A DNA stretch of 64,000 nucleotides, taken from NCBI GenBank assembly GCA_019166125.1, contig JAHTBO010000001.1, positions 349,066 to 413,065 of the forward strand, given 5' to 3'. The notes beneath the pieces are model-generated. The model was not told the origin of the DNA and did no database searches. It saw nothing but the letters and a program-made list of their open reading frames with translations. The position numbers were made by a program, and so were the translations under genes. This DNA comes from Alcaligenaceae bacterium CGII-47. GTDB lineage: Bacteria > Pseudomonadota > Gammaproteobacteria > Burkholderiales > Burkholderiaceae_B. Position 1 is the first letter of the stretch. Every line of letters starts with the position of its first letter. Below, in pieces: positions 1,536 through 18,400 of this stretch.

Positions 1536-2465
1536 CTATGAGTCGGCTGCGCGGTGACTACCCATCTGCTGGCGAAACGTCTTGGGCGATACGCCTGCTA
1601 CACGCTTGAAGAACCGGGTGAAATACCCCGGATCAGCAAAACCAAGTGAATACGATATTGTGTTGATTGTCCGTGTCGTATAAATGAGCTCTCGCCTCGC
1701 CTCTAGCAACAAGCGTTCGTGGATAAGTCGCAAGGCAGACTTATCGGCATGCATTTTGGTGATGACGTTCAGGTGTGCTGGCGTGATGCCAATCCGACTT
1801 GCATAGTAGGCGACCTGATGATGTTCGGTGTAGTGCGCCTCTATTAATTGCGTAAACAGTCCCAAGTGCTTGCTGCTGTGTTCCTTGCCTCGAATCTGTG
1901 GGCCTGCGCTGTGGGCGCTGCATCGGTAGCTCCAGATAAGAATGCACGATAGAAGCGACTCCAGCAATACACCACGATGCGGCGATGGGAGGTTGTGATA
2001 TTCCCGGTTCAGGCAATCAAAGCTTAATTGGGTATGCCGACTCTCTGCATCGGCACCCAGACTTAGAAATACCGGCGTATGAGCGCTGGTCAGCGCCAGC
2101 CCCGTTTGCGCGCTAATCTGGGTCATCAGCGCATAGGTGATGGTAAGGATATACCCGATGCAGCCAGGGTCAAACTGAAAGCCGTGCACAACCATTTGAG
2201 GGATCAAAACCATCTGTCCGGCGTTCATCGCCTGGCTTGAGCCGTCCAGGTGAACCTCGGCGTGTCCGGATTTTAGATAGAGGATCTGGAATAAATCCAT
2301 GTGCTTATGAAGCTTGACATGCCAATTGTGCAATTTTTCCTGGGCGGCGATCGTCTCGCAATACATCAGATCTGTGGCTGTCCAGATATTTCCGTAGCCG
2401 TAAAGTTTAAAGACTGGGATAGGCGTAGGGTCTTTGCTGGGCGAGGTCACGATATTAGTTTCCAT
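1536..2465 (-). CDS. pobR: AraC-family transcriptional regulator, PobR type
   Basis: This is a probable activator of 4-hydroxybenzoate catabolism, about 309 residues. The N-terminal cupin-like ligand domain begins VFKLYGYG and contains LHKHMDLFQILYL, resembling AraC-type PobR proteins. The C-terminal AraC double helix-turn-helix covers roughly the last 100 residues and ends with SYSLGFADPGYFTRFFKR. An ATG at 2465 is preferred; a TTG eight codons upstream (2489) is also open, and neither has a convincing Shine-Dalgarno site. It is convergent with pobA and the first SBP gene and divergent from the second LigAB-type dioxygenase genes, so either could be a target. The AraC call is secure; the PobR role rests on similarity and neighbourhood. 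Confidence 0.85.
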   Translation of the reverse strand: METNIVTSPSKDPTPIPVFKLYGYGNIWTATDLMYCETIAAQEKLHNWHVKLHKHMDLFQILYLKSGHAEVHLDGSSQAMNAGQMVLIPQMVVHGFQFDPGCIGYILTITYALMTQISAQTGLALTSAHTPVFLSLGADAESRHTQLSFDCLNREYHNLPSPHRGVLLESLLSCILIWSYRCSAHSAGPQIRGKEHSSKHLGLFTQLIEAHYTEHHQVAYYASRIGITPAHLNVITKMHADKSALRLIHERLLLEARRELIYTTRTINTISYSLGFADPGYFTRFFKRVAGVSPKTFRQQMGSHRAADS

Positions 2466-2495
2466 CAAGCAATTACGATGCACAGGCAATACGCG

Positions 2496-2600: not shown

Positions 2601-2954
2601 ATGAACGCCCCATCACGTAAGCGCGCCATCCCGGGCACCGTTATTTTTGACGGTGACCAGGCCCGGATTGGGTACGCCCTCAATAAAATGTGCTTCAGTT
2701 TTAATTCAGCAGACTGTCGCGAGGCATTTCAGCGCGACGAGGAGGCCTATATGGATAAGTATGGCCTCAATGATGCCCAGCGTCAGGGTATTCGCAATCG
2801 TAACGTGCTCGAGCTTATCGCCGCTGGTGGCCATCCTTATTACCTGGCGAAATTCGCCGGTATCTTCAAACTGGACATGCAGGATATCGGCGCACAGCAG
2901 ACCGGCATGACCAAGGAAGCCTTTCAGGCAAAACTCATCGCAGCAGGGGAATAA
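2601..2954 (+). CDS. LigA-like small (alpha) subunit of a class III extradiol dioxygenase, paralogue 1
   Basis: This is the small helical subunit of a LigAB-type ring-cleavage enzyme, 117 residues. The family core is visible in PGTVIFDGDQARIGYALNK near the start, then AGGHPYYLAKFAG and a TGMTKEAF ending. The ATG at 2601 has GTGGAGA eight bases upstream; an in-frame codon at 2559 would add 14 residues but has no ribosome site. The gene is followed after 2 bp by the catalytic subunit gene. It is clearly divergent from the pmdA copy at 14968, which has the usual GGNIYFLAKL motif. This pair may therefore act on a different catechol, such as gallate or a methylgallate, but I cannot tell which. Confidence 0.85.
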   Translation: MNAPSRKRAIPGTVIFDGDQARIGYALNKMCFSFNSADCREAFQRDEEAYMDKYGLNDAQRQGIRNRNVLELIAAGGHPYYLAKFAGIFKLDMQDIGAQQTGMTKEAFQAKLIAAGE

Positions 2955-2956
2955 TC

Positions 2957-3805
2957 ATGGCACGTATCGTTGGCAGTATCAGCACTTCTCATATTCCAGC
3001 CATCGGTGGGGCGATTGCTCGCAAGGCACAGCAGGAACCATACTGGAAGCCATTTTTTGATGGTTATCCACCTGTTCAGGAATGGTTGGAGAGCGCACGC
3101 CCTGATGTGGTGGTCATTATCCATAACGATCATGGATTGAATTTCTTTCTCGATAAAATGCCGACCTTCGCTGTAGGCACCGCAGCTGAATATCAGACTG
3201 CGGACGAAGGCTGGGGCATCCCTGCACTCGCGCCCGCACCGGGCAATCAGGATCTGGCCTGGCATATGGTCGAGTCGCTGGTGGCTGATGAGTTTGATAT
3301 CACCACCTGCCAAGAGGCATTGATCGATCATGCCGTCTCTCTGCCCCTCGCGCTGCTCTGGCCCGAGCACAATGCTCGAGGCGAATGGCCGGTGCAAATC
3401 GTGCCTGTATGCATCAATACGGTGCAGGCGCCTTATCCATCGGCAGCGCGCTGCTATCAACTCGGCCAGGCGATCCGCCGTGCTGTTGAATCCTGGGAGA
3501 GTGATGCACGCGTGCTCATCATCGGCAGTGGTGGCCTATCGCACCAGCTCGATGGCGAGCGTGCGGGGTTTATAAACAAGGCCTTCGATACGCAATTCAT
3601 GCAGAGCATGGTTGATGATCCAGAATGGGTGACGCAGTATTCCAATGATGAGTTAGTCGAGTTGACTGGGACACAGGGGATTGAATTGCTGATGTGGGTG
3701 GCAGCGCGTGGCGCCATGCCTGAGGCGGTTCACCAGTTACACGCAAATTACCATGTGCCGATATCAAATACGGCGACAGGGCTGCTGGTGCTGGCGCCGC
3801 GCTAG
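2957..3805 (+). CDS. LigB-like catalytic subunit of a class III extradiol dioxygenase, paralogue 1
   Basis: This is the catalytic large subunit of a non-haem Fe(II) ring-cleavage dioxygenase, 282 residues. All expected active-site residues are present by comparison with LigB: iron ligands His12 (TSHIP), His59 (HNDH) and Glu243 (QGIELLMW), plus His125 and the general base His196 (GGLSHQ). The region around His196 (GSGGLSHQLDGERAGF) looks closer to gallate dioxygenases of the DesB/GalA type than to the canonical copy at 15356, which has GTGGMSHQLQGPRAGL. Gallate dioxygenases are normally single fused chains, however, while this one keeps a separate alpha subunit. Protocatechuate, gallate or 3-O-methylgallate are all possible substrates. 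The enzyme class is secure; the substrate is not. Confidence 0.87.
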   Translation: MARIVGSISTSHIPAIGGAIARKAQQEPYWKPFFDGYPPVQEWLESARPDVVVIIHNDHGLNFFLDKMPTFAVGTAAEYQTADEGWGIPALAPAPGNQDLAWHMVESLVADEFDITTCQEALIDHAVSLPLALLWPEHNARGEWPVQIVPVCINTVQAPYPSAARCYQLGQAIRRAVESWESDARVLIIGSGGLSHQLDGERAGFINKAFDTQFMQSMVDDPEWVTQYSNDELVELTGTQGIELLMWVAARGAMPEAVHQLHANYHVPISNTATGLLVLAPR

Positions 3806-3821
3806 GAACCGGTTCACAGTC

Positions 3822-4157
3822 TTATGGTTGGGCGTCAGGGGCGGGTGTCGCCCACCCCTGGCGTGTCAACCAACCCAGGATCGCAGCAGTGCAGGCCTCG
3901 GGCTGCTCGAAAGGCGCCATATGGGCGGCATGAGGTATCGCCACGACCTCGGCCAGACCTTGATATCCAGTGTTCATGAGGACGAGGCCTGTGCAACGTT
4001 GCGCCGCCTGCGGGATCGAGCTGATGCCGCCCAAGCGTGGTATCAGTACAGTACCCAGACGTGTCAGGGGACCTGTGAGGTGACACCAGGTATCGCCATC
4101 GCACAACAGACCGTGCAGGAGAATAAATGTGACTTCAGGGCGGGATGATTTGTGCAT
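3822..4157 (-). pseudogene. Decayed alpha/beta hydrolase remnant
   Basis: An open frame of about 111 residues carries only pieces of an alpha/beta hydrolase of normal length (about 250). The first strand and oxyanion loop are present (FILLHGLLCDGDTW), as are a middle strand (GLVLMNTG) and the C-terminal catalytic-histidine region (PHAAHMAPFEQP). The nucleophile elbow GxSxG, the cap domain and the acidic residue are missing, as if two in-frame deletions had removed them. The frame is still open, so it may be expressed, but it cannot be a normal serine hydrolase. Together with flanking sequence it fills the 481-bp gap between the first dioxygenase pair and the reductase gene, on the opposite strand. 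Confidence 0.6.
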
Positions 4158-4286
4158 GATGCAAATTTTAGGTTTGTTCGAATTAAATATGAACCACCCC
4201 ATGTGCAGCCGGGACATTTATCGCGCCATGCGCGGGTGCAGTATCATGTAACGGGTCAAGAACGCCTTTGTAAGGATCCTAATTCT

Positions 4287-5246
4287 ATGCTTCAGCTGTC
4301 TGTAAAGGTCGCCAAAAAACGCGTCGAGGCGATTGATGTTGTCAGCCTGGAGCTCGCCAGCGTTGATGGCCAAGCCTTGCCTGCGTTTACTGCGGGTGCG
4401 CATATTGATGTCTTTGTGCCAGGTGGTCTGATCCGTCAGTATTCCTTACTTAATGATTGCACCGAGTCCTCACGCTATTTGATTGGCGTACTGCGCGAAC
4501 AGAATTCGCGGGGTGGCTCGGTAGCCCTGCATGACCGCACCCAAGAGGGTGACCTTATTCAGATCAGCGCGCCGCGCAATCGCTTTGCCTTGATGCCAGC
4601 ACGACGCAGCATCTTGTTTGCGGGCGGAATCGGGGTGACACCGATTCTCTGTATGGCTAAGCGTCTGCAGGCTGCACAGTCGGATTTCGAGTTTCACTAT
4701 TGCAGCCGCACCTTGGATCGGACCGCATTTCATGATGAGATTGTCAGCTCTGATTTTGCTGGGCGCACGCAGTTTCATTTTGATGACCAGGCCTCGACCC
4801 GTATGGATCTGGATGCCATTCTGTCAACGCCGCACGAGCAGACGCACTTGTACGTGTGTGGGCCTGCCGGTTTTATTGATTGCGTGGTTGCACACGCCCA
4901 GGCGGTGGGCTGGCCGGTGTCGCAAATTCATTTCGAGCGTTTCGCTGCTGCCGAGCACATCGAGCCGCTTGCCAGTGATCAGACTTTTCAGGTCAAGCTT
5001 GCCAGCACGGGTGAGATATTCGATATTCCGCCCGGCGAGCCGATTACCCGGGTACTGGATCGGCACGGCGTGTTCATTCCGGTCTCGTGCGAGGAGGGCA
5101 TCTGCGGCACATGCCTCACCGGCGTGGTCGAAGGTGTGCCGGATCATCGGGACAGTTACCTGACGGATCAGGAACATGCTGTCAACGATCAGTTCACGCC
5201 GTGTTGCTCACGATCCAAGACCTCGTTGCTGGTGATCGATGCTTAG
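4287..5246 (+). CDS. Ferredoxin-type oxidoreductase of the phthalate dioxygenase reductase/VanB family
   Basis: This is an electron-transfer protein of 319 residues that passes electrons from NAD(P)H through a flavin to a 2Fe-2S centre. In order it has a flavin-binding barrel (RQYSL near residue 50), a nucleotide-binding domain (GGIGVTPI) and a C-terminal plant-type ferredoxin domain with CEEGICGTC and a later CC pair. The ATG at 4287 has AAGGAT upstream; a longer frame from 4152 lacks a site and does not match the family. Such proteins normally serve a Rieske oxygenase such as VanA, but no oxygenase gene occurs anywhere in the window. It lies 41 bp before the second SBP gene. Vanillate O-demethylation or another aromatic hydroxylation is a reasonable guess only. 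Confidence 0.85.
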   Translation: MLQLSVKVAKKRVEAIDVVSLELASVDGQALPAFTAGAHIDVFVPGGLIRQYSLLNDCTESSRYLIGVLREQNSRGGSVALHDRTQEGDLIQISAPRNRFALMPARRSILFAGGIGVTPILCMAKRLQAAQSDFEFHYCSRTLDRTAFHDEIVSSDFAGRTQFHFDDQASTRMDLDAILSTPHEQTHLYVCGPAGFIDCVVAHAQAVGWPVSQIHFERFAAAEHIEPLASDQTFQVKLASTGEIFDIPPGEPITRVLDRHGVFIPVSCEEGICGTCLTGVVEGVPDHRDSYLTDQEHAVNDQFTPCCSRSKTSLLVIDA

Positions 5247-5287
5247 TTGTTTTGAACACTCTCTCTATAAATAATCTGGAGACAACC

Positions 5288-6454
5288 ATGAGAAAAATGC
5301 TTAAGCATTTGGCGATATTTTCTGTGACCCTCGCAGCCTTGGGTGTTGCCCAGGCAGCCGATCTGAAGGTGGGTATGATTGTTCCCTCGACCGGGCCTTT
5401 CGCCTCGACCGGGCAGCAGATGATGAATGGTGCGCAACTCTACCTCAAGGTTAATGGTGACACCGTTGCGGGGCGCAAGGTCGTGTTGATCCCCAAGGAT
5501 GATACCGGCGTGTCCCCAGAGATCAGCAAGCGCCAGGCGCAGAATTTGCTGATTCAGGATCATGTGGATATTCTGGCCGGTTTTGGTCTGACCCCGGCTG
5601 CGTTTGCGGTCGCGCCGCTGGCAACCGAGGCGAAGGTGCCTATGGTTGTCATGAACGCAGCAACCTCGTCGATCACGACTAAATCACCCTATATCGTGCG
5701 CACCTCAATGACCCTGCCGCAGGTGGCTGCGCCGATGGCGACCTGGGCGGCCAATAATGGTGTCAAAAGAGTCTATACCATCACTGCGGACTATGGTCCT
5801 GGTCATGATGCGGCCGCCCAGTTCAAAAAGACCTTCACCGCTGCGGGCGGCGAGATCATTGGCGAACTGAACACCCCGCTCACCAATCCGGATTTCGCGC
5901 CGTTTCTGCAAAAAATCAAGGACTCCAAGCCCGATGCGCTATTTCTGTTTGTGCCGAATGGCGAGCAGGGCGTGGCCTTTGCCAAGGGGTATAACGAGCG
6001 CGGGCTGGCCGAAGCGGGGATCAAGCTGCTGGCCACGGGTGATGTGGTGACCGAGGATGTTCTCGATGCGATGGGTGATAACGCACTGGGCATGATCACG
6101 TCTTTTCATTACTCTCAGGCACACCCGTCGCCGGAGAACACCAAGTTTGTGGCGGCCTATGAGGCAGCCTACCCGGGTGTGCGTCCTAATATGGTGGCGG
6201 TGGCTTCCTACGACGGTATGCACTTGATCTACGAAGCACTCAAAAAGACCCAGGGTGATGCCAAGGGTGATGCATTCATGGCGGCGGTCAAGGCCATGAG
6301 CTGGACGAGCCCGCGTGGTCCGATCTCGATTGACCCGCAGACGCGCGACATTGTGCAGAACATGTACATCCGCAAGGTCGAGCGCGTGAATGGTGTGCTG
6401 CAGAATGTTGAGTTCGACCAGATCGAAAACTTCAAGGACCCTGGCAAGGAATAA
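5288..6454 (+). CDS. ABC transporter substrate-binding protein, Leu/Ile/Val-type, copy 2
   Basis: This is a periplasmic binding protein of 388 residues, closely similar along its whole length to the copies at 316 and 17237. A signal peptide covers residues 1-23 (cut after AQA, before ADLK). Conserved stretches shared with the other two include PKDDTG, NLLIQDHVDILAGFGLTP and SSITTKSPYIVRTSMTLPQ. GGAG at 5277-5281 supports the ATG at 5288. No permease or ATPase genes accompany it. It follows the orphan reductase, so it may bind the substrate of the nearby alternative dioxygenase pathway and deliver it to the importer at 18459-22478. The ligand is unknown. Confidence 0.9.
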   Translation: MRKMLKHLAIFSVTLAALGVAQAADLKVGMIVPSTGPFASTGQQMMNGAQLYLKVNGDTVAGRKVVLIPKDDTGVSPEISKRQAQNLLIQDHVDILAGFGLTPAAFAVAPLATEAKVPMVVMNAATSSITTKSPYIVRTSMTLPQVAAPMATWAANNGVKRVYTITADYGPGHDAAAQFKKTFTAAGGEIIGELNTPLTNPDFAPFLQKIKDSKPDALFLFVPNGEQGVAFAKGYNERGLAEAGIKLLATGDVVTEDVLDAMGDNALGMITSFHYSQAHPSPENTKFVAAYEAAYPGVRPNMVAVASYDGMHLIYEALKKTQGDAKGDAFMAAVKAMSWTSPRGPISIDPQTRDIVQNMYIRKVERVNGVLQNVEFDQIENFKDPGKE

Positions 6455-8543: not shown

Positions 8544-10127
8544 ATGAGTGAGGATATTCCAGTTAGTGGTCGTGAGTACGTCTTAAACGATACCGATACG
8601 ATTGTGCTGGCTACCGACCTCGAGGGGCGGATAACTTATGTTAACGAAGACTTCATCAGAATCAGCGGGCATACCCGAGAAGAGTTGATTGGTTCCCAAC
8701 AAAGTATCCTGCGCTATCCGGGGATGCCGCGCGAGCCTTTTGCTGATTTGATGCGTACGGTCAGACAAGGCAAGGCTTGGACTGGTTTGCTTAAAAACCG
8801 CTGCAAGAATGGCGATCATTATTGGGTTGAGATCAACGCTGCGCCAATCTTTGGCCCGGATGGGATCAGGGGCTTCACCTCTGTGCGCACGCGGCCTAGC
8901 CGCGAACGTGTGGCGTATGCCGATGAGGCATATCAGGCGATGGCAAGGGGCAATAAGCGGATACGGATTGTTGAGGGTGGAATCGTCGAAGGGGGTAGGC
9001 TGAGGGCTTGCGCGCTGCGTGACGTATCCATACGCACCCGAACAATGGCTTACGCCGGCGTCATGGGCTTATGTTTTATTTTGCTTGGGTGGGAGGGCTG
9101 GTCTGCGGCGTCGCGCTTCACCTTGTCGGGTTTGAGCCTGGGATTGGCCATGCTAGGTGCCTGGGCTCTCTATCGTGGCATTATCGGACCGCTGCAGCGT
9201 ATGCGTGCGGATGTCGAACTCTTGAGTGCGAGCAACCTCTCTGGACATATTCAGGTCGCGAGTTGCGCTGAGCTGGCGGATCTAGCTCATGGCCTGCGTA
9301 TCTTGCAAATCAATACCAAGCTGCTGATTGTTCAGATCAAGGAATCGGCCCGCATTGTGGTACAGGGCGTGCGCGAGATTGCCGAGGGGAATAGTGATCT
9401 GTCGCAGCGCACCGATTCCCAGGCAAGTTCCCTAGAGCAGACAGCAGCTTCGATTGAGGAGCTGGCAAGCACGGTTAAACAAAACGCCGAGCATGCGGTG
9501 CAGGCGAGTGATCTGGCGGTCGATTCAGCTGCGCAGGTCTTGCAAAGCGAGGCCTCCATGCAGCGTGCGGTAGAGACCATGGGGACGATACAGGCCAGCT
9601 CGCACAGAATTGCAGATATTATTGGCGTTATCAATAGTATTGCGTTTCAGACGAATATTCTAGCGCTGAACGCGGCCGTTGAGGCAGCGCGTGCCGGCGA
9701 GGAGGGACGCGGCTTTGCGGTGGTTGCCGCCGAGGTACGCAGCCTCGCTCAGCGCACCACCGATGCTGCCAAGGAAATCGAAACCCTGGTTACGGAATCC
9801 GTCGAGCACATCAGCGCAGGCTCCGCGCTGGTTGATGAGGCAGGTCGGATATCTGGTTTAACACGAGAGTCGGTGCAGCATTTTGCCACCATCGTGCATG
9901 ATATCGCCGCAGCCAGTCGTGAACAGGGACAGGGGATTGATCAGGTGAATATTGCGATCACCGAGATTGATGGTGCAACACGTAGCAATGCTGCCGCCGT
10001 GGCCCAAGCTGCCGTCGCGGCAGGTAATATTCACCATCAGGCACAAAAGCTCAATAAGCTGGTCGATTCCTTTAGACTTCTTGAATCATCGGCGCAGGAT
10101 AGACTTGGCGAACCGTCTCTCGGATAA
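8544..10127 (+). CDS. Aer-like methyl-accepting chemotaxis protein with N-terminal PAS domain
   Basis: This is an energy/redox-type chemoreceptor of 527 residues. A cytoplasmic PAS domain (about residues 12-120) contains the Aer-like stretch RYPGMPREPFADL and KNGDHYW. Two membrane spans with a very short loop lie around 168-215, followed by a HAMP-like segment. The long coiled-coil signalling domain has the hairpin tip FQTNILALNAAVEAARAGEEG. There is no periplasmic sensor and no C-terminal methyltransferase-tether pentapeptide. The ATG at 8544 is chosen over an upstream TTG that would overlap the previous gene; neither has a strong ribosome site. It is encoded between two aromatic-catabolism units, which fits behavioural responses to metabolism of these substrates. 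Its last 56 bp overlap the convergent LysR gene. Confidence 0.87.
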   Translation: MSEDIPVSGREYVLNDTDTIVLATDLEGRITYVNEDFIRISGHTREELIGSQQSILRYPGMPREPFADLMRTVRQGKAWTGLLKNRCKNGDHYWVEINAAPIFGPDGIRGFTSVRTRPSRERVAYADEAYQAMARGNKRIRIVEGGIVEGGRLRACALRDVSIRTRTMAYAGVMGLCFILLGWEGWSAASRFTLSGLSLGLAMLGAWALYRGIIGPLQRMRADVELLSASNLSGHIQVASCAELADLAHGLRILQINTKLLIVQIKESARIVVQGVREIAEGNSDLSQRTDSQASSLEQTAASIEELASTVKQNAEHAVQASDLAVDSAAQVLQSEASMQRAVETMGTIQASSHRIADIIGVINSIAFQTNILALNAAVEAARAGEEGRGFAVVAAEVRSLAQRTTDAAKEIETLVTESVEHISAGSALVDEAGRISGLTRESVQHFATIVHDIAAASREQGQGIDQVNIAITEIDGATRSNAAAVAQAAVAAGNIHHQAQKLNKLVDSFRLLESSAQDRLGEPSLG

Positions 10128-10986
10128 GTCCGACCATGGCATTTTGTGTCAGAGTACTGATGCGCGCTGATGCGGTCGCTAGGCACAGACGACTCAATAG
10201 CTCGGGTTGCACAATAGGCTGGATTTGGTAGGCCGCAGGGCGCGATGACGTGATGACGGCATGGCGGGTCAGTACAGCGTATCCTGCGCCATCGGCAACC
10301 AGATCAAGGATCGCAGGCACACTATCAATTTCCAGGCTGATACGGGGCTTGCAGCCGATCAGCGACATCTTGGATTCGAGCAGCATGCGTACAGTGTGTG
10401 GACGGTTCGGGATAATCAATGGAATCGTCGCGAGTGCACTTAGCATCACAGGTGCGGTGATCGGGTTTTCGGTGCGTGCGCCGATCAGGTAGAGACTTTC
10501 AGAGGTGAGTGGGCTGAAGTCCAGTTCGGGTGAGGGCATCGGGTTATAGAGCAGTGCGATATCCAGACGACCCGCCAACAACCATTCCTGCATGACAAAA
10601 GACAAGCCTTCGCTGATTGACAGTGTCGCGCTGGGTAAGCGTTTGCGGAAGGCACGGGTCAGTTCAACCGTCATCATCTTGGAGGGGCTCGGAGCGATTC
10701 CGACGGCGACACGGCCCGCCAGAGCACCGCGCACCCGGCCTAGGTCTTCTTTGGCGCGTTCGACTTGGTGCAGGATCCCTCGGCAGTGCTCTAGCAGCAG
10801 CTTACCCGCCTCGGTCGTGGTCACGCCTCGTCCATTGCGATTCAGTAGGGTCTGGCGCAATTCCACCTCTAACATCCGTACCTGACGACTGAGCGCAGGT
10901 TGAGCGATGTTCAGGACACGGGAAGCATGCGTAAAACTACCGAGTTCAGCGACCCGTAAAAAGTATTCTAATTGCTTGAGGTCCAT
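10072..10986 (-). CDS. LysR-family transcriptional regulator, probable regulator of the pmd operon
   Basis: This is a 304-residue LysR-type regulator. The N-terminal winged helix-turn-helix covers residues 1-60 (LEYFLRVAELGSFTHASRVL, then QPALSRQVRMLE) and is followed by a linker helix and a periplasmic-binding-like effector domain. It is transcribed divergently from pmdU with a 109-bp gap, the standard arrangement for a LysR activator of the neighbouring operon. That gap holds an ATATCA-TTT-TGATAT inverted repeat and a 13-bp element also found upstream of the aldo/keto reductase gene. The effector may be protocatechuate, 4-hydroxybenzoate or a pathway intermediate. Its 3' end overlaps the chemoreceptor gene by 56 bp. 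The family is certain; the regulon is inferred. Confidence 0.88.
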   Translation of the reverse strand: MDLKQLEYFLRVAELGSFTHASRVLNIAQPALSRQVRMLEVELRQTLLNRNGRGVTTTEAGKLLLEHCRGILHQVERAKEDLGRVRGALAGRVAVGIAPSPSKMMTVELTRAFRKRLPSATLSISEGLSFVMQEWLLAGRLDIALLYNPMPSPELDFSPLTSESLYLIGARTENPITAPVMLSALATIPLIIPNRPHTVRMLLESKMSLIGCKPRISLEIDSVPAILDLVADGAGYAVLTRHAVITSSRPAAYQIQPIVQPELLSRLCLATASARISTLTQNAMVGLIRETVRQVYPAPMIQEV

Positions 10987-11095: not shown

Positions 11096-12232
11096 ATGCA
11101 AACAGCCATCCCAACTTCATTCATGCGCGGCGGTACGTCGCGTGGCCCGTTTTTTCTGGAAACGGATTTACCCGCCGATGTAGCGGTGCGTGACCGCGTA
11201 TTGCTTGCGGTGATGGGTTCACCCGATAAACGGCAGATCGACGGCTTGGGCGGTGCCCATCCCTTGACCAGCAAGGTCGGGATCGTACGCCGCAGCACGA
11301 CAGCGGGTGTTGATGTGGACTTCTTGTTCGCTCAGTTACAGCCCGAGCAGGATACCGTCGATACCACACCAAATTGCGGAAATATGCTCGCAGCGGTTGT
11401 GCCCTTTGCGCTAGAGCGCGGCTTGATCGAGGCCTCTGGCGACGAGACCACGGTGCGGGTGCTTACGCTCAATACGGGCATGCAGTGTGATATTACGGTG
11501 CAAACACCAATGACGCCCCAGGGGCGCGAAGTACGCTATGACGGTGAGGCACGCATAGACGGTGTGCCGGGTGCCTCGGCCCCCATCACAATCAACTTTC
11601 TGGATACAGCGGGTTCGGTGTGTGCTGGTCTGTTGCCGACAGGACAAGTGTGCGACAAGGTGCATATCGAGCCCTTGGCGGGGCAGGAGGAATTCGAGCC
11701 CTTTGATATTGCGGTGACGTGTATCGACAATGGTATGCCAATGGTGCTGTTTCGGGCGGCAGATATGGGGTGCACTGGCTACGAGACCCCGGCGCAGTTG
11801 AACGCCAATATAGCGCTTAAGGCGCGTATAGAGGCCTTGCGTTTGCACACGGGGAAATTGATGGGGCTAGGCGATGTGAGCAAATTGAACTACCCCAAGA
11901 TGACCTTGATTGCCGCACCGCAGGCGGGCGGCAGCGTGAGCACGCGCTGCTTTATTCCTCACGTGTGTCATGAGGCGGTCGGCGTGCTGGGTGCCGTGAC
12001 GATTGGTACGGCCTGCGTACTCGATGGCTCGATCACTCAGGGGATTGCTGTGGTGCCCGAGGGCCTGCGTAAAACCCTCTCCATTGAACACCCTAGCGGT
12101 GAGTTCAGTGTGGAATTGGGGCTTGACCCCTCAGATACCCAAAAGGTCACCCGAGCGGCGTTGCTGCGCACGGCACGCTTGATCATGCGTGGCGAGGTCA
12201 TGATTCCCTCGACTATTTGGACTAATCTCTAG
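11096..12232 (+). CDS. pmdU: 4-oxalomesaconate tautomerase (GalD/PmdU, PrpF family)
   Basis: This is a cofactor-free isomerase of 378 residues that interconverts the keto and enol forms of 4-oxalomesaconate before hydration. The PrpF/GalD family pattern is clear: SFMRGGTSRGPFF near the start, VMGSPDKRQIDGLGGAHPLTSK, a central NCGNMLAAV, and the C-terminal SFIPH-type region (CFIPHVCHEAVGVLGAV) and EHPSGEF. These blocks align well with Pseudomonas GalD. The ATG at 11096 is chosen because the family starts a few residues before the RGGTS motif; the longer frame from 11051 would overlap the promoter. It is the first gene of a 12-gene operon in the order pmdU-E-F-D-A-B-C, as in Comamonas but without the pmdK permease. 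Confidence 0.9.
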   Translation: MQTAIPTSFMRGGTSRGPFFLETDLPADVAVRDRVLLAVMGSPDKRQIDGLGGAHPLTSKVGIVRRSTTAGVDVDFLFAQLQPEQDTVDTTPNCGNMLAAVVPFALERGLIEASGDETTVRVLTLNTGMQCDITVQTPMTPQGREVRYDGEARIDGVPGASAPITINFLDTAGSVCAGLLPTGQVCDKVHIEPLAGQEEFEPFDIAVTCIDNGMPMVLFRAADMGCTGYETPAQLNANIALKARIEALRLHTGKLMGLGDVSKLNYPKMTLIAAPQAGGSVSTRCFIPHVCHEAVGVLGAVTIGTACVLDGSITQGIAVVPEGLRKTLSIEHPSGEFSVELGLDPSDTQKVTRAALLRTARLIMRGEVMIPSTIWTNL

Positions 12233-12252
12233 ACTGACAGGATGTGTTTGAT

Positions 12253-13296
12253 ATGAGCAGAGAACCTTTGATTATCGATTGCCACGGTCATTACACCACG
12301 GCACCTGAAGCACTGGCGCACTGGCGTGAGCGTCAGATTGCAGGGATCAAGAATCCATCCGAGATGCCCGCCGCCTCCGAGCTGCGTATTAGCGATGATG
12401 AGTTACGCGAATCGATCGAGAAAAATCAGCTCCGGCTGATGCGTGAGCGCGGCTCGGATTTGACGATTTTTTCGCCTCGAGCGAGCTTCATGGCACACCA
12501 CATCGGCGATTTTCAGGTATCGAGCACTTGGTCTGCCATTTGTAATGAGCTATGCCATCGGGTCGCCGAACTGTACCCCGAGCACTTTGCAACGGCAGCC
12601 ATGCTGCCGCAGTCGCCCGGAGTTGATCCGGCGACCTGCATCCCAGAGCTCGAAAAGTGTGTCAAGGAATATGGCGCAGTCGGCATCAATCTGAATCCTG
12701 ATCCATCGGGCGGTCACTGGACCTCGCCACCACTCTCGGATCGCTCTTGGTACCCGATTTATGAAAAAATGATCGAGTACGACATCCCTGCGATGGTTCA
12801 TGTCTCGACAAGCTGCAATGCCTGCTTCCATACGACTGGTGCACATTATCTGAACGCGGATACGACGGCATTTATGCAGTGCCTGACCTCGGATCTATTC
12901 AAAGATTTCCCGACACTGCGATTTATCGTCCCGCATGGTGGCGGCGCGGTGCCTTATCACTGGGGCCGTTTCCGTGGTCTCGCGCAGGCGCTGGGTAAGC
13001 CTTTGCTCGATGAGCATCTGCTAAACAACATCTATTTTGATACCTGCGTGTATCACCAGCCCGGCATTGATCTGCTTACCAAGGTCATTCCGGTCAAAAA
13101 CGTCCTGTTCGCCTCCGAGATGATTGGTGCGGTGCGCGGCATCGATCCAGAGACCGGGCATTATTTCGATGACACCAAACGCTATATAGAGGCTGCCACG
13201 ACGCTGACTGAAGAGGATCGCTTCCAGATCTACGAAGGCAATGCGCGGCGCGTGTTTCCTCGACTGGATGTCGCCCTGAGCGCCCGTGGTCGATAG
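12253..13296 (+). CDS. pmdE: 4-oxalomesaconate hydratase (LigJ/PmdE)
   Basis: This is a metal-dependent hydratase of the amidohydrolase superfamily, 347 residues, converting 4-oxalomesaconate to 4-carboxy-4-hydroxy-2-oxoadipate. The metal motif DCHGHY lies at the N-terminus, with the conserved histidine in [14 protein letters not shown] and the late acidic region [12 protein letters not shown]. The ATG at 12253 is preferred; a GTG nine bases upstream is also in frame, and AGGA at 12238-12241 could serve either. It sits between the tautomerase and the aldolase genes, matching its place in the pathway. Length and motifs agree with LigJ proteins, so the assignment is strong. Confidence 0.92.
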
Positions 13297-13327: not shown

Positions 13328-14023
13328 ATGACGATATCGTTGAATAATCTGGGGATTGTCCATCGGACGATTCAGCGCGCTGATCCGGCTGCGGTAGCGC
13401 TTCTGTCCAAGTTCGGTGTGGCGACGCTGCATGAGGCCATGGGTCGTGTTGGACTGATGAAGACTTATATGCGCCCAATCTATAAGGGTGCACGCATGTG
13501 CGGTACGGCCGTGACGGTCCTTCTGCAGCCTGGGGATAACTGGATGTTGCATGTGGCGGCCGAGCAGATCAAGCCGGGTGATGTCGTCGTGGCAGCATGC
13601 ACCACGGACAATATGGATGGGTTCTTTGGTGATTTGTTGGCGACTTCGTTCAAGGCGCGCGGTGCGCATGGCCTGATCATCGATGGCGGTGTGCGTGATG
13701 TGGACACGCTAGAGGAGATGGATTTTCCCGTTTTCAGTCGAGCGATCAACGCTAAGGGCACGGTTAAGGGCACTTTGGGCTCCGTGAATATTCCGATCGT
13801 CTGTGCGGGTGCCCAAGTGATGCCAGGTGACGTGGTGGTGGCAGATGTGGATGGCGTTGTGATTATTCCGGCAGCGGTGGCAGGTGAGGTGGCAGCTCGT
13901 GCTCAGGCGCGTGAGGACAATGAGGGCGCTAAACGTGACGTATTTGCGTCGGGTGTGCTAGGTCTGGATTACTACAAGATGCGCGAAGGCCTCGAAAAAG
14001 CCGGCCTGAAGTACATAGACTAA
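13328..14023 (+). CDS. pmdF: 4-carboxy-4-hydroxy-2-oxoadipate aldolase (LigK/PmdF)
   Basis: This is a class II-type pyruvate aldolase with an RraA-like fold, 231 residues, catalysing the last step that yields pyruvate and oxaloacetate. Signature segments are [11 protein letters not shown] near the start, [12 protein letters not shown] and [10 protein letters not shown], the last containing the conserved Arg-Asp used for substrate and metal binding. A GAGGAG site at 13316-13321 supports the ATG at 13328; the frame opening at 13286 would overlap pmdE and is rejected. It lies 31 bp after pmdE and 11 bp before pmdD. Relatives also cleave 4-hydroxy-4-methyl-2-oxoglutarate, a likely side activity. 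Confidence 0.92.
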
Positions 14024-14034
14024 GGATGCTATAG

Positions 14035-14964
14035 ATGAGCAACGCGACACACGCCAAGGAAATATTTACCAAGACCCCCGGCTGGCTGGACTTCTATGAT
14101 GGTCCCAGTACACCGCGTTTCAAGGTGCCTGCAGGGGCGGTGGATGCACATTGTCATGTGTTCGGGCCTGGTGCGGTTTTTCCTTACGCACCACAGCGCA
14201 AGTACACGCCTTGTGATGCCCCCAAGGAAATGCTGTTTGCCTTGCGTGATCACTTGGGTTTCGATAAAAACGTCATTGTGCAGGCAACTTGCCATGGCAC
14301 GGATAACCGGGCCCTGGTGGATGCATTGCGTGCCTCGGATGGGCGTGCACGTGGAGTAGCCACCGTTTCGCGTGATGTGAGCGATGCTGAACTGTTGGCC
14401 ATGCATGAGGCGGGTGTGCGCGCGACGCGTTTTAATTTCGTCAAGCGCCTGGCGGATTTTACGCCGCGTGAGGTTCTGGCTGACATTGCAGGGCGGATCG
14501 CTCCGCTTGGCTGGCACGTCGTGGTGTATTTTGAGGCGCAGGATTTGCCTGAGCTATATGATTTTTTTACAGCACTACCCACCCAGGTCGTGGTCGATCA
14601 CATGGGTCGCCCGGATGTTACCAAGCCTGTAGATGGCCCTGAATTTGAATTATTTGTGCGTATGATGCGCGAACATGAAAATATCTGGAGCAAGGTCAGT
14701 TGCCCAGAGCGTCTGAGCCAATCGGGGCCCCCGGCGCTAAATGGCGAACAGCAGGCCTATCGCGACGTGGTACCGTTTGCGAGACATCTGGTCGAGGCCT
14801 TCCCTGATCGTGTTTTATGGGGGACGGATTGGCCCCATCCTAATCTGAAATCACACATGCCCGATGATGGTCTACTGGTCGACCATATCCCGCATATCGC
14901 CCCGACTGCAGCTTTGCAGCAAAAACTGCTGGTCGATAATCCGACCCGTTTGTATTGGAGGTGA
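14035..14964 (+). CDS. pmdD: 2-pyrone-4,6-dicarboxylate lactonase (LigI/PmdD)
   Basis: This is an amidohydrolase-superfamily lactonase of 309 residues that opens 2-pyrone-4,6-dicarboxylate to 4-oxalomesaconate. The HxH motif is seen in VDAHCHVFGPG (about residues 36-46), VVDHMGRPD supplies a conserved histidine, and VLWGTDWPHPN carries the catalytic aspartate. All match LigI. Unlike most amidohydrolases, LigI works without a required metal, which I take from knowledge of the family. It lies between the aldolase and the dioxygenase subunit genes with very short gaps (11 and 3 bp), so it is part of the same polycistronic unit. Confidence 0.93.
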   Translation: MSNATHAKEIFTKTPGWLDFYDGPSTPRFKVPAGAVDAHCHVFGPGAVFPYAPQRKYTPCDAPKEMLFALRDHLGFDKNVIVQATCHGTDNRALVDALRASDGRARGVATVSRDVSDAELLAMHEAGVRATRFNFVKRLADFTPREVLADIAGRIAPLGWHVVVYFEAQDLPELYDFFTALPTQVVVDHMGRPDVTKPVDGPEFELFVRMMREHENIWSKVSCPERLSQSGPPALNGEQQAYRDVVPFARHLVEAFPDRVLWGTDWPHPNLKSHMPDDGLLVDHIPHIAPTAALQQKLLVDNPTRLYWR

Positions 14965-14967
14965 ATT

Positions 14968-15363
14968 ATGTCACTGAATAAACCCTATACCGATATTCCA
15001 GGCACGATCATATTTGATGCCGAGCAGTCGCGTCTGGGCTATCACTTGAATCAGTTCTGCATGTCGCTCATGAAGGCAGAGAATCGCGAGCGCTTTAAGG
15101 CTGATGAACGCGCCTATCTGGACGAGTGGCCCATGACCGAAGAGCAAAAGCAGGGCGTGCTCACTCGTGACCTGAACCGCTGCCTGGCCGCTGGGGGAAA
15201 TATTTACTTTCTCGCCAAACTCGGTGCGACCGATGGACGTTCGTTCCAGTATATGGCTGCGAGCATGACGGGGATGACGCAAGAGGCGTACGCTGCCATG
15301 ATGAAGGCGGGCGGGCGCAGCGTCGAAGGTAATCGCAGAATTGGAGAGCACAAGAATGGCTAA
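14968..15363 (+). CDS. pmdA: Protocatechuate 4,5-dioxygenase alpha subunit
   Basis: This is the small subunit of the ring-cleavage enzyme, 131 residues. It has the canonical LigA features: DIPGTIIFDAEQSRLGYHLN, then AGGNIYFLAKLGATDGRSFQ and MTGMTQEAY. It packs over the active-site entrance of the beta subunit and is needed for full activity in characterised LigAB enzymes. TGGAGG immediately upstream overlaps the end of pmdD. Its last codons overlap the pmdB start by 8 bp, so the two subunits are translationally coupled. Compared with the paralogue at 2601 this copy is the standard one, and it is the expected protocatechuate enzyme of the pathway. Confidence 0.93.
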   Translation: MSLNKPYTDIPGTIIFDAEQSRLGYHLNQFCMSLMKAENRERFKADERAYLDEWPMTEEQKQGVLTRDLNRCLAAGGNIYFLAKLGATDGRSFQYMAASMTGMTQEAYAAMMKAGGRSVEGNRRIGEHKNG

Positions 15364-16225
15364 GCAACATGCGCGAATCAGCGCCAGTGTGTATACCTCC
15401 CACGTACCCGCTATCGGGGCAGCACTCGATCTGGGTAAGGCCGCCGAGCCATACTGGGCGCCGTTGTTTGCAGGGTATGAAACGTCCAAACAATGGTTAC
15501 GTGATAACACGCCAGATGTGATTTTTCTGGTCTTTAATGATCACGCCACAGCATTCAGCCTGGATATGATCCCCACCTTTGCTATTGGCTGCGCCGAGTC
15601 CTATGAGCCCGCTGATGAAGGCTGGGGGCGGCGCCCTGTGCCGACGGTGATCGGCCATCCAGAGCTCGCTGCCCATATTGCTCAATCGGTGATTCAGCAG
15701 GATTTTGACCTGACTATTGTCAATAAGATGGATGTGGATCATGGTTTGACCGTGCCCTTATCCTTAATGTGCGGACAGCCAGAGGCTTGGCCGTGTCCGG
15801 TGATTCCCTTTGCGGTTAACGTGGTGCAGTATCCGGTGCCATCTGGACGCCGCTGTTTTGAGCTAGGTCGTGCTATCCGGCGTGCGGTCGAGGCCTATGA
15901 TCGGCCACTGAATGTGCAGATATGGGGTACGGGTGGCATGAGCCACCAGTTGCAAGGTCCGCGTGCTGGCCTGATCAATAGCGCCTTCGATCAGGCCTTT
16001 TTGGATCGTATGATTGCCGATCCGCAGGCACAGGCGGATGTGCCGCACATCGAATATGTGCGTGAGGCCGGATCCGAGGGGATTGAATTAGTGATGTGGC
16101 TGGTGGCGCGCGGTGCCATGGCCGATGCGGCTGGTGGGCCTGCGCCGCATGTTTTTCATCGCTTTTATCATGTGCCCGCCTCGAACACGGCGGTTGGACA
16201 TCTGATCTTGGAGGAACAAAAATAA
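15356..16225 (+). CDS. pmdB: Protocatechuate 4,5-dioxygenase beta subunit
   Basis: This is the catalytic Fe(II) subunit, 289 residues, cleaving protocatechuate between C4 and C5 to 4-carboxy-2-hydroxymuconate-6-semialdehyde. Iron ligands correspond to His16 (TSHVPAIG), His63 (FNDHATAF) and Glu244 (SEGIELVMWL); His129 (DVDHG) and His197 (GGMSHQLQGPRAG) are the other conserved active-site histidines. The sequence follows Sphingobium LigB closely (PTFAIGCAE, PADEGWG). GGAGA at 15343-15347 supports the ATG at 15356, inside the end of pmdA; an in-frame codon at 15341 is less likely. Its stop overlaps the pmdC start (TAATG). Confidence 0.95.
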   Translation: MAKQHARISASVYTSHVPAIGAALDLGKAAEPYWAPLFAGYETSKQWLRDNTPDVIFLVFNDHATAFSLDMIPTFAIGCAESYEPADEGWGRRPVPTVIGHPELAAHIAQSVIQQDFDLTIVNKMDVDHGLTVPLSLMCGQPEAWPCPVIPFAVNVVQYPVPSGRRCFELGRAIRRAVEAYDRPLNVQIWGTGGMSHQLQGPRAGLINSAFDQAFLDRMIADPQAQADVPHIEYVREAGSEGIELVMWLVARGAMADAAGGPAPHVFHRFYHVPASNTAVGHLILEEQK

Positions 16226-17181
16226 TGGCACGTACAATTAAGGTCGCTTTGGCGGGCGCGGGCGCATTTGGTATCAAGCATCTGGATGGCATCACCAAGA
16301 TCGATGGCGTAGAGGTCGTCTCCTTAGTAAGCCGTGATCTGGACAAAACCCGTAAAGTTGCCGATAAGTATGGCATTGCCCATGTCACGACGGATCTGAG
16401 TGCGTCCTTGGCGTTGCCCGAGGTCGAAGCGGTCATCCTGTGCACTCCGACACAGATGCATGCCGCGCAGGCCATGGCCTGTTTGCGTGCTGGTAAGCAC
16501 GTTCAAGTCGAGATCCCCATGGCCGACAAGCTGGCCGATGCGCAGGCGCTGGTCGCCTTGGCACAGCAGACCGGCAAAATTGCGATGTGCGGGCATACCC
16601 GACGCTTCAACCCCAGCCATCAGTATGTTCATCAACGCGTCATGAGGCGAGAGTTCAACATTCAGCAGATGGATGTGCAGACGTATTTCTTTCGGCGTAC
16701 CAATATGAACGCCTTGGGCGAGCCGCGTAGCTGGACGGATCACTTACTTTGGCATCACGCCGCACATACAGTGGATTTGTTTGCCTATCAGGCGAATAGC
16801 CCTGTCGTAGAGGCCCATGCCATGCAGGGGCCGATCCATCCGACCTTAGGTATCGCCATGGATATGTCGATCCAACTGAAGGCGGCGAATGGTGCAATCT
16901 GCACGCTCTCGCTTAGTTTCAATAACGATGGTCCCTTTGGTACGTACTTCCGCTATATCGGCGATACCGCGACCTACCTCGCTCGCTATGATGATCTATT
17001 CAATGGTAAGGATGAGCCCATCGACGTCAGCAAAGTGGATGTGTCCATGAACGGAATCGAATTGCAGGATCGTGAGTTTTTTGCTGCGATACGTGAGGGC
17101 CGTGAGCCTAACGCGAGCGTGGCACAAGTCTTGCCGTGTTATCAGGTACTGCATCAGCTCGAGCAACAGCTCAAAAAATAA
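16225..17181 (+). CDS. pmdC: 4-carboxy-2-hydroxymuconate-6-semialdehyde dehydrogenase (LigC/PmdC)
   Basis: This is an NADP-dependent dehydrogenase of the Gfo/Idh/MocA type, 318 residues, oxidising the cyclised ring-cleavage product to 2-pyrone-4,6-dicarboxylate. The Rossmann motif AGAGAFGIKH lies near residues 9-18, the EIPMADKLADA segment follows at about 95, and the family C-terminal domain contains LLWHHAAHTVDLF. The preceding GGAGG at 16210-16214 and a one-base overlap with the pmdB stop fix the ATG at 16225; an in-frame codon at 16096 lies inside pmdB and is rejected. It completes the enzymatic part of the operon, and the third SBP gene follows after 55 bp. Confidence 0.93.
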   Translation: MARTIKVALAGAGAFGIKHLDGITKIDGVEVVSLVSRDLDKTRKVADKYGIAHVTTDLSASLALPEVEAVILCTPTQMHAAQAMACLRAGKHVQVEIPMADKLADAQALVALAQQTGKIAMCGHTRRFNPSHQYVHQRVMRREFNIQQMDVQTYFFRRTNMNALGEPRSWTDHLLWHHAAHTVDLFAYQANSPVVEAHAMQGPIHPTLGIAMDMSIQLKAANGAICTLSLSFNNDGPFGTYFRYIGDTATYLARYDDLFNGKDEPIDVSKVDVSMNGIELQDREFFAAIREGREPNASVAQVLPCYQVLHQLEQQLKK

Positions 17182-17236
17182 GCCACATCGGGGCGCTTCC
17201 CCTCGTTATCTTTATAATAATTTCCGGAGAAACAAT

Positions 17237-18400
17237 ATGAGTTTTATCAAAAAGCTAGGCGTACTGGCTGTGGCGCTCGGTGCCATGACCAGTGTGCAGG
17301 CTGAGGACATCAAGATCGGTCTGGTTGTGCCGATGTCTGGTCCCTTTGCATCCCATGGCAAGCAGTTGAATAATGGCATTAAGCTTTTTATGGCCGAACA
17401 CGGGGATACCGTCGCCGGTAAAAAAATCCAGATTATCCTCAAGGATGACACCGGCATTTCCCCCGAGGTTGCCAAACGCCAGGCCCAAGAGCTTCTGATC
17501 AAGGATAAGGTCAATATCCTGGCCGGGTTCAGCTTGACACCTAACGCCTTTGCGGTCGCACCGTTGGCCACCCAGGCCAAGGTGCCAATGGTGGTGCTCA
17601 ATGCAGCGACCTCTTCGATTACCGAGAAGTCGCCCAATATCGTGCGCGTGTCGATGACCTTGCCGCAGGATACGGCGCCGATGGCTAAGTGGGCCTTTGA
17701 TAACGGGATCAAGAACGTCTATACCCTCGTCGCTGATTACGGCCCAGGGCATGATGCCGAGGCACAGTTCAAAAAGACCTTTACAGAGCTGGGCGGCAAG
17801 ATCATCGGTGATGTACGCACACCGGTCAAGAACCCTGACTTTGCTCCCTATCTACAGAAGATCAAGGATATCAAGCCCGATGCGGTGTTTTTCTTTGTAC
17901 CGAACGGCGAGCAGGGTGTGGCGTTGGCCAAGGGGTACACGGAACGCGGCTTAGCCGAAGCCGGCATCAAAGCTTTGGCGACCGGTGACGTGACCGACGA
18001 GGACGTGCTGGACGCAATGGGTGATAATGCGCTGGGCATGATCACATCCTTCCATTATTCCCAGGTCCATCCGTCCCCCGAGAACAAGGCCTTTGTTGCT
18101 GCATACACCAAGGCTTATCCCAGCGATCGTCCGAATTTCATGGCAGTCGCCGCCTATGATGGCATGCACATGATTTATCAGGCCCTGGAGCAGACCAAGG
18201 GCGACACAAGCGCTGCCGCATTTATGGCAGCGGTTAAGGGCATGAAGTGGGAGAGCCCGCGCGGCCCGGTCGAAATCGATGCGCAAACACGCGATATTAT
18301 CCAGAACGTGTATATCCGCAAGGTGGAGCGCGTGGATGGTGTCTTGCAGAATGTCGAGTTCGATAAAATCGAAGCAGTCAAAGATCCTGGTAAGCAGTAA
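17237..18400 (+). CDS. ABC transporter substrate-binding protein, Leu/Ile/Val-type, copy 3 (encoded with the importer)
   Basis: This is a periplasmic binding protein of 387 residues with a signal peptide over residues 1-22 (cut after VQA, before EDIK). It shares nearly all conserved blocks with the copies at 316 and 5288 (KDDTG, TSSIT, ADYGPGHDAEAQFKKTFT, TSFHYSQ), with small changes such as ITEKSPNIVRVSMTLPQ. CCGGAGA upstream supports the ATG at 17237. It is followed by two permease and two ATPase genes, so this is the cognate binding protein of the importer. The pmd neighbours suggest protocatechuate or 4-hydroxybenzoate as ligand. A hairpin follows the gene. Confidence 0.92.
   Translation: MSFIKKLGVLAVALGAMTSVQAEDIKIGLVVPMSGPFASHGKQLNNGIKLFMAEHGDTVAGKKIQIILKDDTGISPEVAKRQAQELLIKDKVNILAGFSLTPNAFAVAPLATQAKVPMVVLNAATSSITEKSPNIVRVSMTLPQDTAPMAKWAFDNGIKNVYTLVADYGPGHDAEAQFKKTFTELGGKIIGDVRTPVKNPDFAPYLQKIKDIKPDAVFFFVPNGEQGVALAKGYTERGLAEAGIKALATGDVTDEDVLDAMGDNALGMITSFHYSQVHPSPENKAFVAAYTKAYPSDRPNFMAVAAYDGMHMIYQALEQTKGDTSAAAFMAAVKGMKWESPRGPVEIDAQTRDIIQNVYIRKVERVDGVLQNVEFDKIEAVKDPGKQ

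Follow-up and report, generated by a model that had tools for sequence, protein, structure and literature searches.

A second LigAB-type gene pair beside a PobR-like regulator probably encodes a LigAB2-type isozyme of protocatechuate 4,5-dioxygenase

We analysed a stretch of 64,000 nucleotides from Alcaligenaceae bacterium CGII-47, hereafter the window, which contains a gene pair, ligA2 and ligB2, in addition to the canonical pmdAB genes. We conclude, with a probability of roughly 0.64, that ligA2B2 encodes a LigAB2-type isozyme of protocatechuate 4,5-dioxygenase whose pocket is relaxed around C5. The enzyme would be a class III extradiol dioxygenase with Fe(II) and two subunits, in which H12, H61 and E242 hold the iron while H195 serves as base and H127 as acid, as in LigAB. 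Acting beside PmdAB as its isozyme, it would in the main open the ring of protocatechuate at the 4,5 bond, with CHMS as the product. The PobR-like regulator probably controls the pair, and such control would tie it to 4-hydroxybenzoate. Since LigA2 carries Met instead of the Phe103 that touches C5, its pocket is predicted to take a hydroxyl or methoxyl group at C5; gallate or 3-O-methylgallate (3MGA) is thus a plausible further substrate, and gallate, if accepted, would yield 4-oxalomesaconate directly.

This analysis places an uncharacterised pair in the subfamily of LigAB2, which to our knowledge is the member of that subfamily that has been assayed. It suggests that the likely primary role of the subfamily is on protocatechuate, judging from species in which it supplies the sole such enzyme, and it names alpha-103 as one testable residue for the broader substrate range of the subfamily. 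Enzymes of the LigAB2 type are of interest where mixtures of lignin phenols are to be converted into single products.

The ligA2B2 gene pair

According to the open reading frames of the window, ligA2 (2601..2954, + strand; alpha subunit of the second LigAB-type extradiol dioxygenase, 117 aa) and ligB2 (2957..3805, + strand; catalytic beta subunit, protein P0002, 282 aa) are two separate genes in tandem, each with an ATG start. The original prediction of a second, divergent two-subunit pair at 2601-3805 is therefore exact in its coordinates, and the Pfam domains agree with it: LigA2 matches LigA (PF07746) with 119.7 bits and LigB2 matches LigB (PF02900) with 217.9 bits. The strong difference from the pmdAB genes of the same window, which had also been described, is borne out by identities of 44% between LigA2 and canonical PmdA and 45% between LigB2 and canonical PmdB.

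The NCBIfam models allow the pair to be assigned more narrowly. The top model for LigA2 is NF009918 (191.9 bits, cut-off 161; canonical PmdA reaches only 106.6), which is classed as an equivalog and bears the name 'protocatechuate 4,5-dioxygenase subunit alpha'. For LigB2 the top model is NF009901 (490.3 bits, cut-off 290), which canonical PmdB also passes with 326.4 bits. Thus it is the alpha model that separates LigA2 from PmdA, and the beta cut-off alone does not discriminate between LigB2 and PmdB. LigB2 passes the cut-off of NF009902 as well (349.9 bits, cut-off 299). The pair misses the cut-offs of TIGR02792 (88.6 of 108.6 bits) and, narrowly, of NF009903 (315 of 317); the PmdAB of the window scores best on NF009917 and TIGR02792 (PmdA) and on NF009903 (PmdB). 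The DesB/GalA model NF009904 (cut-off 412) is likewise missed, with 295.1 bits for LigB2 and 35 for LigA2, although one subunit cannot fill this fused model. Because the top scores fall on NF009918 and NF009901, the pair is of a kind already described: as judged by these models, ligA2B2 is a member of the LigAB2 subfamily, a known sister family of canonical PmdAB.

Relative to the copies in a relative of the same genus (locus L039), we find dN/dS values of 0.06 and 0.09 for the pair (0.09 being that of ligB2), and of 0.05 and 0.04 for PmdA and PmdB, with dS near saturation. Both ligA2 and ligB2 thus appear to be under purifying selection relative to the L039 copy, where dN/dS averages over the whole branch. 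In the organism's own genome there are three LigA matches, namely the canonical one, ligA2 and that of a third pair on contig C3, and all nine LigB-family matches have frames too short to encode a fused GalA.

Phylogeny of the beta subunits

In a maximum-likelihood tree of 79 beta sequences, those left of 174 distinct sequences after an 82% identity filter, 53 LigB2 rows form one clade with support 100/99, and 17 canonical LigB/PmdB rows form a separate clade with support 100/100. The pair therefore lies outside ordinary PmdAB, as expected of the divergent enzyme that had been predicted, and it lies apart from DesB/GalA as well. The DesB of Sphingobium SYK-6 and a GalA-type protein from the genus of the window are placed outside both clades, and we rejected a tree in which LigB2 and DesB/GalA are forced into one clade, at a cost of 54.7 log units (AU p 0.000475). 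Because of the identity filter, SYK-6 LigB stands in the tree as an 88% relative. DesZ was not identified among the seven SYK-6 matches.

One member of the 100/99 clade comes from SYK-6 itself; its beta subunit is 61% identical to LigB2 of the window, and its genes adjoin a 486-aa RPE65-family gene (locus L174). In SYK-6 the genes SLG_37520/37530 adjoin SLG_37540, which is the lignostilbene dioxygenase LSD1 (PMC8191317), and the clade pair is therefore very likely SLG_37520/37530. These genes are the SYK-6 homologue that was named for LigAB2 of Novosphingobium aromaticivorans (Saro_1233/1234) by its authors (PMC8091115). Both of these enzymes consist of two subunits, as does the window pair. 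N. aromaticivorans itself is absent among the best 80 of 571 named loci, and its LigAB2 is placed only through the SYK-6 homologue. Among those 80 loci the median identity of LigAB2-type subunits to SYK-6 LigAB is 40.5% for alpha (n=79) and 40.7% for beta (n=80), and the published alpha/beta values for N. aromaticivorans LigAB2 are 41/43% (PMC8091115). The likeness of these identities would tie the LigB2 clade to the N. aromaticivorans enzyme, but only indirectly.

Residues of the active site

We counted residues in 168 LigB and 166 LigA rows from 232 records, once duplicates, short rows and those of uncertain group had been removed. By alignment, the iron ligands H12, H61 and E242 and the acid/base residues H127 and H195 are present in LigB2, just as had been claimed, and they are kept in all LigB2 rows counted, along with S269 and N270. 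We take these last two to lie at the carboxylate end of the substrate. N270 is invariant in LigB2 as in PmdB, and it is missing from both gallate-type rows.

The original prediction also held that the surroundings of the active site are more like those of gallate dioxygenases, and here our results disagree with it. Over the active-site windows, LigB2 is 52% identical to PmdB and 48% to LigB, as against 41% to DesB and 43% to a GalA-type row. At those site columns that tell LigB/PmdB and DesB/GalA-type sequences apart, LigB2 matches the gallate side, represented by two gallate-type rows only, in 4 cases (Gln121, Ala162, Leu193 and Glu200) and the LigB side in 7. We thus rejected a beta active site closer to the gallate enzymes. 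Position 18 of the beta subunit was rejected as a specificity marker, since it is Gly in the window while the clade as a whole shows R, G, N, K, A, Q or I there.

The real active-site difference from the canonical enzyme lies, by these alignments, at position 103 of the alpha subunit and not in the beta surroundings. In the column of LigA Phe103, 100 of the 117 LigA2 rows have Val and the other 17, that of the window among them, have Met; of the 46 canonical rows, 42 have Phe (the other 4 being without it). Among the alpha subunits from loci where LigB2 is the sole enzyme (see below), 10 of 11 loci could be counted, with Met in 7 and Val in 3. Because Val or Met occupies this position in all 117 LigA2 rows counted, we propose that the C5 pocket is relaxed. 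Phe103 of LigA is reported to contact C5 of the substrate, and several LigAB variants with a substitution there are more active on gallate and 3MGA; the mutants F103A and F103S are inactive (PMC10094722), so that a change at this position can also do harm. Our literature search, which most subscription journals lay outside, returned no further paper beyond PMC8091115 and PMC10094722 that links the LigAB2 subfamily with position 103.

For DesB it is reported that Glu377' contacts the 5-OH of gallate and confers the specificity for this substrate, and that Thr13, Thr267 and Tyr391' lie at the carboxyl group (PMC3962378). In the window pair the columns of Glu377', Thr13, Thr267 and Tyr391' contain Ala, Ile, Thr and Gly, respectively. 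The Glu377 column is Ala in every LigA2 row, and the Thr at the Thr267 counterpart is common to all groups, PmdB included. According to the DesB authors, a Phe takes the position of Glu377 in the LigAB structure (PMC3962378), so that alignments by sequence and by structure may differ there.

The window pair is therefore like DesB/GalA in its iron and acid/base residues, in the Thr267 column, in Leu193 and in a few other residues, but unlike these enzymes it is not a single fused chain, it does not share Glu377, Thr13 and Tyr391, and it belongs to a different clade. With PmdAB/LigAB it shares the subunit make-up, the catalytic residues, S269/N270 and the pmd gene context, while differing in identity (44-45% to PmdAB), in clade, and in having Met instead of Phe at alpha-103.

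Lower-pathway genes in the window

Cleavage of protocatechuate at the 4,5 bond produces an aldehyde, CHMS, whose breakdown needs CHMS dehydrogenase (PmdC) and PDC hydrolase. Cleavage of gallate produces 4-oxalomesaconate directly, and neither PmdC nor PDC hydrolase is needed. The shared lower-pathway enzymes that had been predicted are indeed encoded, or have candidates, in the window, all on the + strand. These are a 4-oxalomesaconate tautomerase (11096..12232; NF033377, 522 bits, cut-off 440), an amidohydrolase that is likely the 4-oxalomesaconate hydratase (12244..13296; Amidohydro_2, without an NCBIfam match), and a candidate CHA aldolase (13328..14023; 58-64% identical to annotated 4-carboxy-4-hydroxy-2-oxoadipate aldolase genes in L097, L098 and L099). 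The hydratase function is our assumption from the position of the gene and from general knowledge of pmd clusters.

On the same strand lie a candidate 2-pyrone-4,6-dicarboxylate hydrolase (14035..14964; Amidohydro_2, named by context, with the 4-sulfomuconolactone hydrolase model below its cut-off), canonical PmdA (14968..15363; NF009917 and TIGR02792 over cut-off), canonical PmdB (15356..16225; NF009903, 565 bits, cut-off 317) and a Gfo/Idh/MocA dehydrogenase (16225..17181; GFO_IDH_MocA and OxRdtase_C). This last protein, whose relatives in L097 and L098 are annotated Gfo/Idh/MocA, we take to be the CHMS dehydrogenase PmdC, from general knowledge of LigC/PmdC. The same aromatic catabolism region contains three similar ABC-type substrate-binding proteins (316-1485, 5087-6454 and 17072-18400), the first of which is Peripla_BP_6, and only the third of which adjoins transporter genes.

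PmdC as a substrate test across genomes

Within the organism's own order, taken to be Burkholderiales, 23 of 399 genomes (its own included) contain LigB2 at 60-100% identity, with the next matches dropping to 48%, and in 21 of these 23 another LigB match, at 43-48%, is present. Since the pair is nearly always accompanied by a second LigB match, a specialised role is possible in this order. In a sample of the phylum, LigB2 (at least 53% identical to that of the window) occurs in 20 of 398 genomes, which carry several family codes and belong to the same class and the wider phylum. Named relatives are found in Azospirillum, in Novosphingobium, and on Photobacterium and Vibrio plasmids.

We searched the same 398 genomes for PmdC orthologues, defined as matches to the window PmdC at E<=1e-90, and found them in 31. 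Of these, 20 have LigB2, 10 have canonical LigB (62-82% to PmdB), and one (G603) has a split canonical LigB. PmdC is missing in all nine genomes whose best LigB-like match is of neither type (41-49% to PmdB). The LigB match of G603 (C1:562903-563734) consists of two overlapping pieces adjoining PmdC, which may reflect a frameshift in the gene or an error in the sequence.

In eight genomes LigB2 is the sole enzyme, that is, the only LigB-type match genome-wide at E<=1e-15. All eight loci, from six family codes, include genes for PmdC, PDC hydrolase, hydratase, tautomerase and aldolase. The same complete set is present at three loci on named plasmids (L097, L100 and L101), where the loci rather than whole genomes were read. 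PmdC and PDC hydrolase genes thus occur at 11 of the 11 loci that we take as sole-enzyme loci. Since the sole-LigB2 genomes possess a full protocatechuate cluster, the LigAB2 subfamily must be able to cleave protocatechuate in those hosts, whatever else it accepts. The same genes speak against gallate as the main substrate. The suggested extension of the pathway to gallate, on the other hand, is plausible in view of the reported in vitro preference of LigAB2 and of Val/Met at alpha-103, though the pair shares neither Glu377, nor a common clade, nor the beta site with the gallate enzymes.

Genes at the relatives' loci were called with a codon-usage caller. Of 22 relatives' loci from the own order, 16 include PmdC in the stretch read, the sixteenth being that of G388, counted through L049. 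No pmd gene is labelled in the stretch read at 6 of these 22, nor at 64 of 80 sphingomonad loci (the best 80 of 571, in stretches of about 12 kb or less), and this absence counts against the preferred reading. Many sphingomonad LigAB2 pairs have other neighbours, whereas the window pair sits with pobA, the PobR-like gene and the pmd cluster. A PobA-like gene directly adjoins ligA2B2 in L099, L105, L107 and L115.

Neighbourhood of the pair

Divergent from ligA2 is an AraC-family regulator gene (1536..2489, - strand; PF12833, PF02311), whose best NCBIfam match is HpaA, with 164.8 bits, below the cut-off. The pair had been described as lying beside pobR: the divergent AraC-family gene is there, but 'PobR' is a name by context only, given because of the PobA-like gene upstream. 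At 12 of the 22 own-order loci a divergent LysR gene adjoins ligA2; the window and L039 have the PobR-like gene in its place. The order in L039 is PobA-PobR-ligA2-ligB2-(hydrolase, opposite strand)-MarR-VanA-VanB, and the flanking order in the window is nearly identical. By Pfam the L039 hydrolase is Abhydrolase_6/1, and the protein beside the VanB-like reductase of L039 is a VanA_C/Rieske oxygenase; NCBIfam provides no specific name for either.

Compared with L039, the window has a scar at 3822-4286, between ligB2 and the VanB-like reductase, where the hydrolase is truncated, a possible MarR fragment remains and the VanA-type gene is missing. The alpha/beta-hydrolase remnant (3822..4217, - strand), located by tblastn of the L039 protein, matches it at 43% in its first part and 61% in its C-terminal part, and is without two internal stretches, one of which contains a GHSMG segment; the L039 copy is intact. 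A weak tblastn match (9 of 15 residues identical, E 8e-4 in a 701-base target) marks the possible MarR-family N-terminal fragment (4191..4235, + strand). The VanB-like flavin/2Fe-2S reductase (4287..5246, + strand; Fer2 and NAD-binding domains) is without a VanA-type partner, the best match to the L039 protein in the own genome being 30% over half its length.

Alternative readings

It is important to weigh the preferred reading, a protocatechuate isozyme, against what is published on the assayed enzyme. LigAB2 of N. aromaticivorans is reported to turn over protocatechuate, 3MGA and gallate, with gallate fastest in vitro; about 31% of gallate and about 14% of protocatechuate was degraded in 2 h (PMC8091115). 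When LigAB was deleted and LigAB2 left, the yield of PDC from vanillate was only about 12%, and the cells reportedly grew on neither vanillate nor syringate (PMC8091115). By analogy, this preference for gallate in vitro, and the weak replacement of LigAB in vivo, would count against the preferred reading. The VanA/VanB and hydrolase genes beside the L039 pair could also count against it, by pointing to syringate/3MGA.

These points lead to an alternative that we regard as unlikely, although it survives better than the others: the pair may be a dedicated gallate/3MGA dioxygenase that once belonged, in this genus, to a syringate/vanillate cassette of VanA/VanB, LigA2B2 and the hydrolase as CHMOD esterase, delivering 4-oxalomesaconate to the pmd lower pathway, with the VanA-type and hydrolase genes since lost here. 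The gene order in L039 would suit such a cassette, and an analogue is published in the syringate operon vanA1B1-mgaAB-mgaC-mgaD of Pseudomonas NGC7, whose 3MGA dioxygenase has two subunits and whose CHMOD hydrolase has a MenH domain (PMC12314914). MgaAB resembles the window pair in its two subunits, and it has VanAB and an alpha/beta hydrolase nearby, as in L039; among the relatives' loci, however, only L039 has such NGC7-like neighbours of ligA2B2, and a hydrolase lies beside the pair in only 3 of the 22 own-order loci. MgaA is reported to be closer to GalA (47%) than to LigA (21%), and MgaB equally near both (41%) (PMC12314914), whereas alpha and beta of the window are both nearer to LigA/PmdB than to DesB, Mga being compared here by its description.

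A dedicated gallate/3MGA enzyme would also accord with Val/Met103 taken together with the gallate preference of LigAB2 (PMC8091115, PMC10094722), with the lack of a single-chain GalA-type match in the own genome, and with locus L117, which joins a two-subunit LigAB-like enzyme to hydrolase, VanA_C and lower-pathway genes in a genome without PmdC. Yet Val/Met103 is found in all 10 counted of the 11 sole-enzyme loci, every one of which has PmdC and PDC hydrolase genes. Moreover, Ala replaces Glu377 of DesB, the AU test speaks against kinship with DesB/GalA, and the same-genus relative has a GalA-type gene as well. The presence of VanAB beside pobA, for its part, fits a route from vanillate to protocatechuate equally well.

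We also put forward, as a speculation that we would not expect to hold in full, that the LigAB2 subfamily might be the natural counterpart of the engineered LigAB F103 mutants. In this proposal, the change from Phe to Val/Met at alpha-103 would give a dual protocatechuate/gallate(3MGA) dioxygenase, which in several lineages could serve a protocatechuate pathway as its sole LigAB-type enzyme. Within this genus the dioxygenase would once have been coupled to a VanAB and hydrolase module like that of the NGC7 syringate operon, a module that would have decayed here while the dioxygenase was kept.

Another catechol as the substrate of the pair, such as one released by stilbene cleavage or a different carboxylated one, is improbable. 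The adjacency of SLG_37520/37530 to LSD1 in SYK-6 (PMC8191317) would suit such a role, as would the proposal of the LigAB2 authors that its main role is on other aromatics, outside the S, G and H phenolics (PMC8091115). No LSD1-like gene was found among the open reading frames around the window pair, however, and S269/N270 are invariant. Besides, the products of lignostilbene cleavage lead to vanillate and protocatechuate anyway. Finally, the broken hydrolase gene next door and the absent VanA-type gene might suggest a decaying, functionless relic, but with both genes intact, their catalytic residues in place and dN/dS at 0.06 and 0.09 against the same-genus copy (a whole-branch average with dS near saturation), we consider this very improbable indeed.

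Other LigAB-type and extradiol enzymes

The third LigAB pair of the own genome (G000:C3:61011-62113; L062, about 8930-10129) has a beta subunit 46% identical to LigB2 of the window. By eye, this subunit is without the S269/N270 pattern, and it may therefore act on a different substrate. After the pair come a PobA paralogue (51% to the PobA that lies upstream of ligA2B2) and a substrate-binding protein (81% to that at 316-1485), and an AraC-type regulator lies on its other side. Of the further class III extradiol enzymes in the own genome, at C37:33862, C3:29700 and C6:33400, one resembles HpaD and two resemble MhpB by eye. Papers on a second PmdAB were sought in the literature, and nothing on the question was listed; a genome paper on Comamonas testosteroni KF-1 reportedly mentions pmdAB.

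L117 (G410:C1:168000-187900) and L116 contain another two-subunit LigAB-like type, 45-46% identical to LigB2 of the window, with a hydrolase adjoining. At L117 the hydrolase is 43% related, aldolase, GalB-like and tautomerase genes are present, and the alpha-103 column by eye holds Met; we regard its pair as a candidate for the cleavage of gallate or 3MGA. The neighbour of ligA2B2 in several sphingomonads is a gene of about 485 aa that resembles lignostilbene dioxygenases, as recognised by sequence in L174 and L195 and by length only in L190, L191, L194, L196 and L198-L200.
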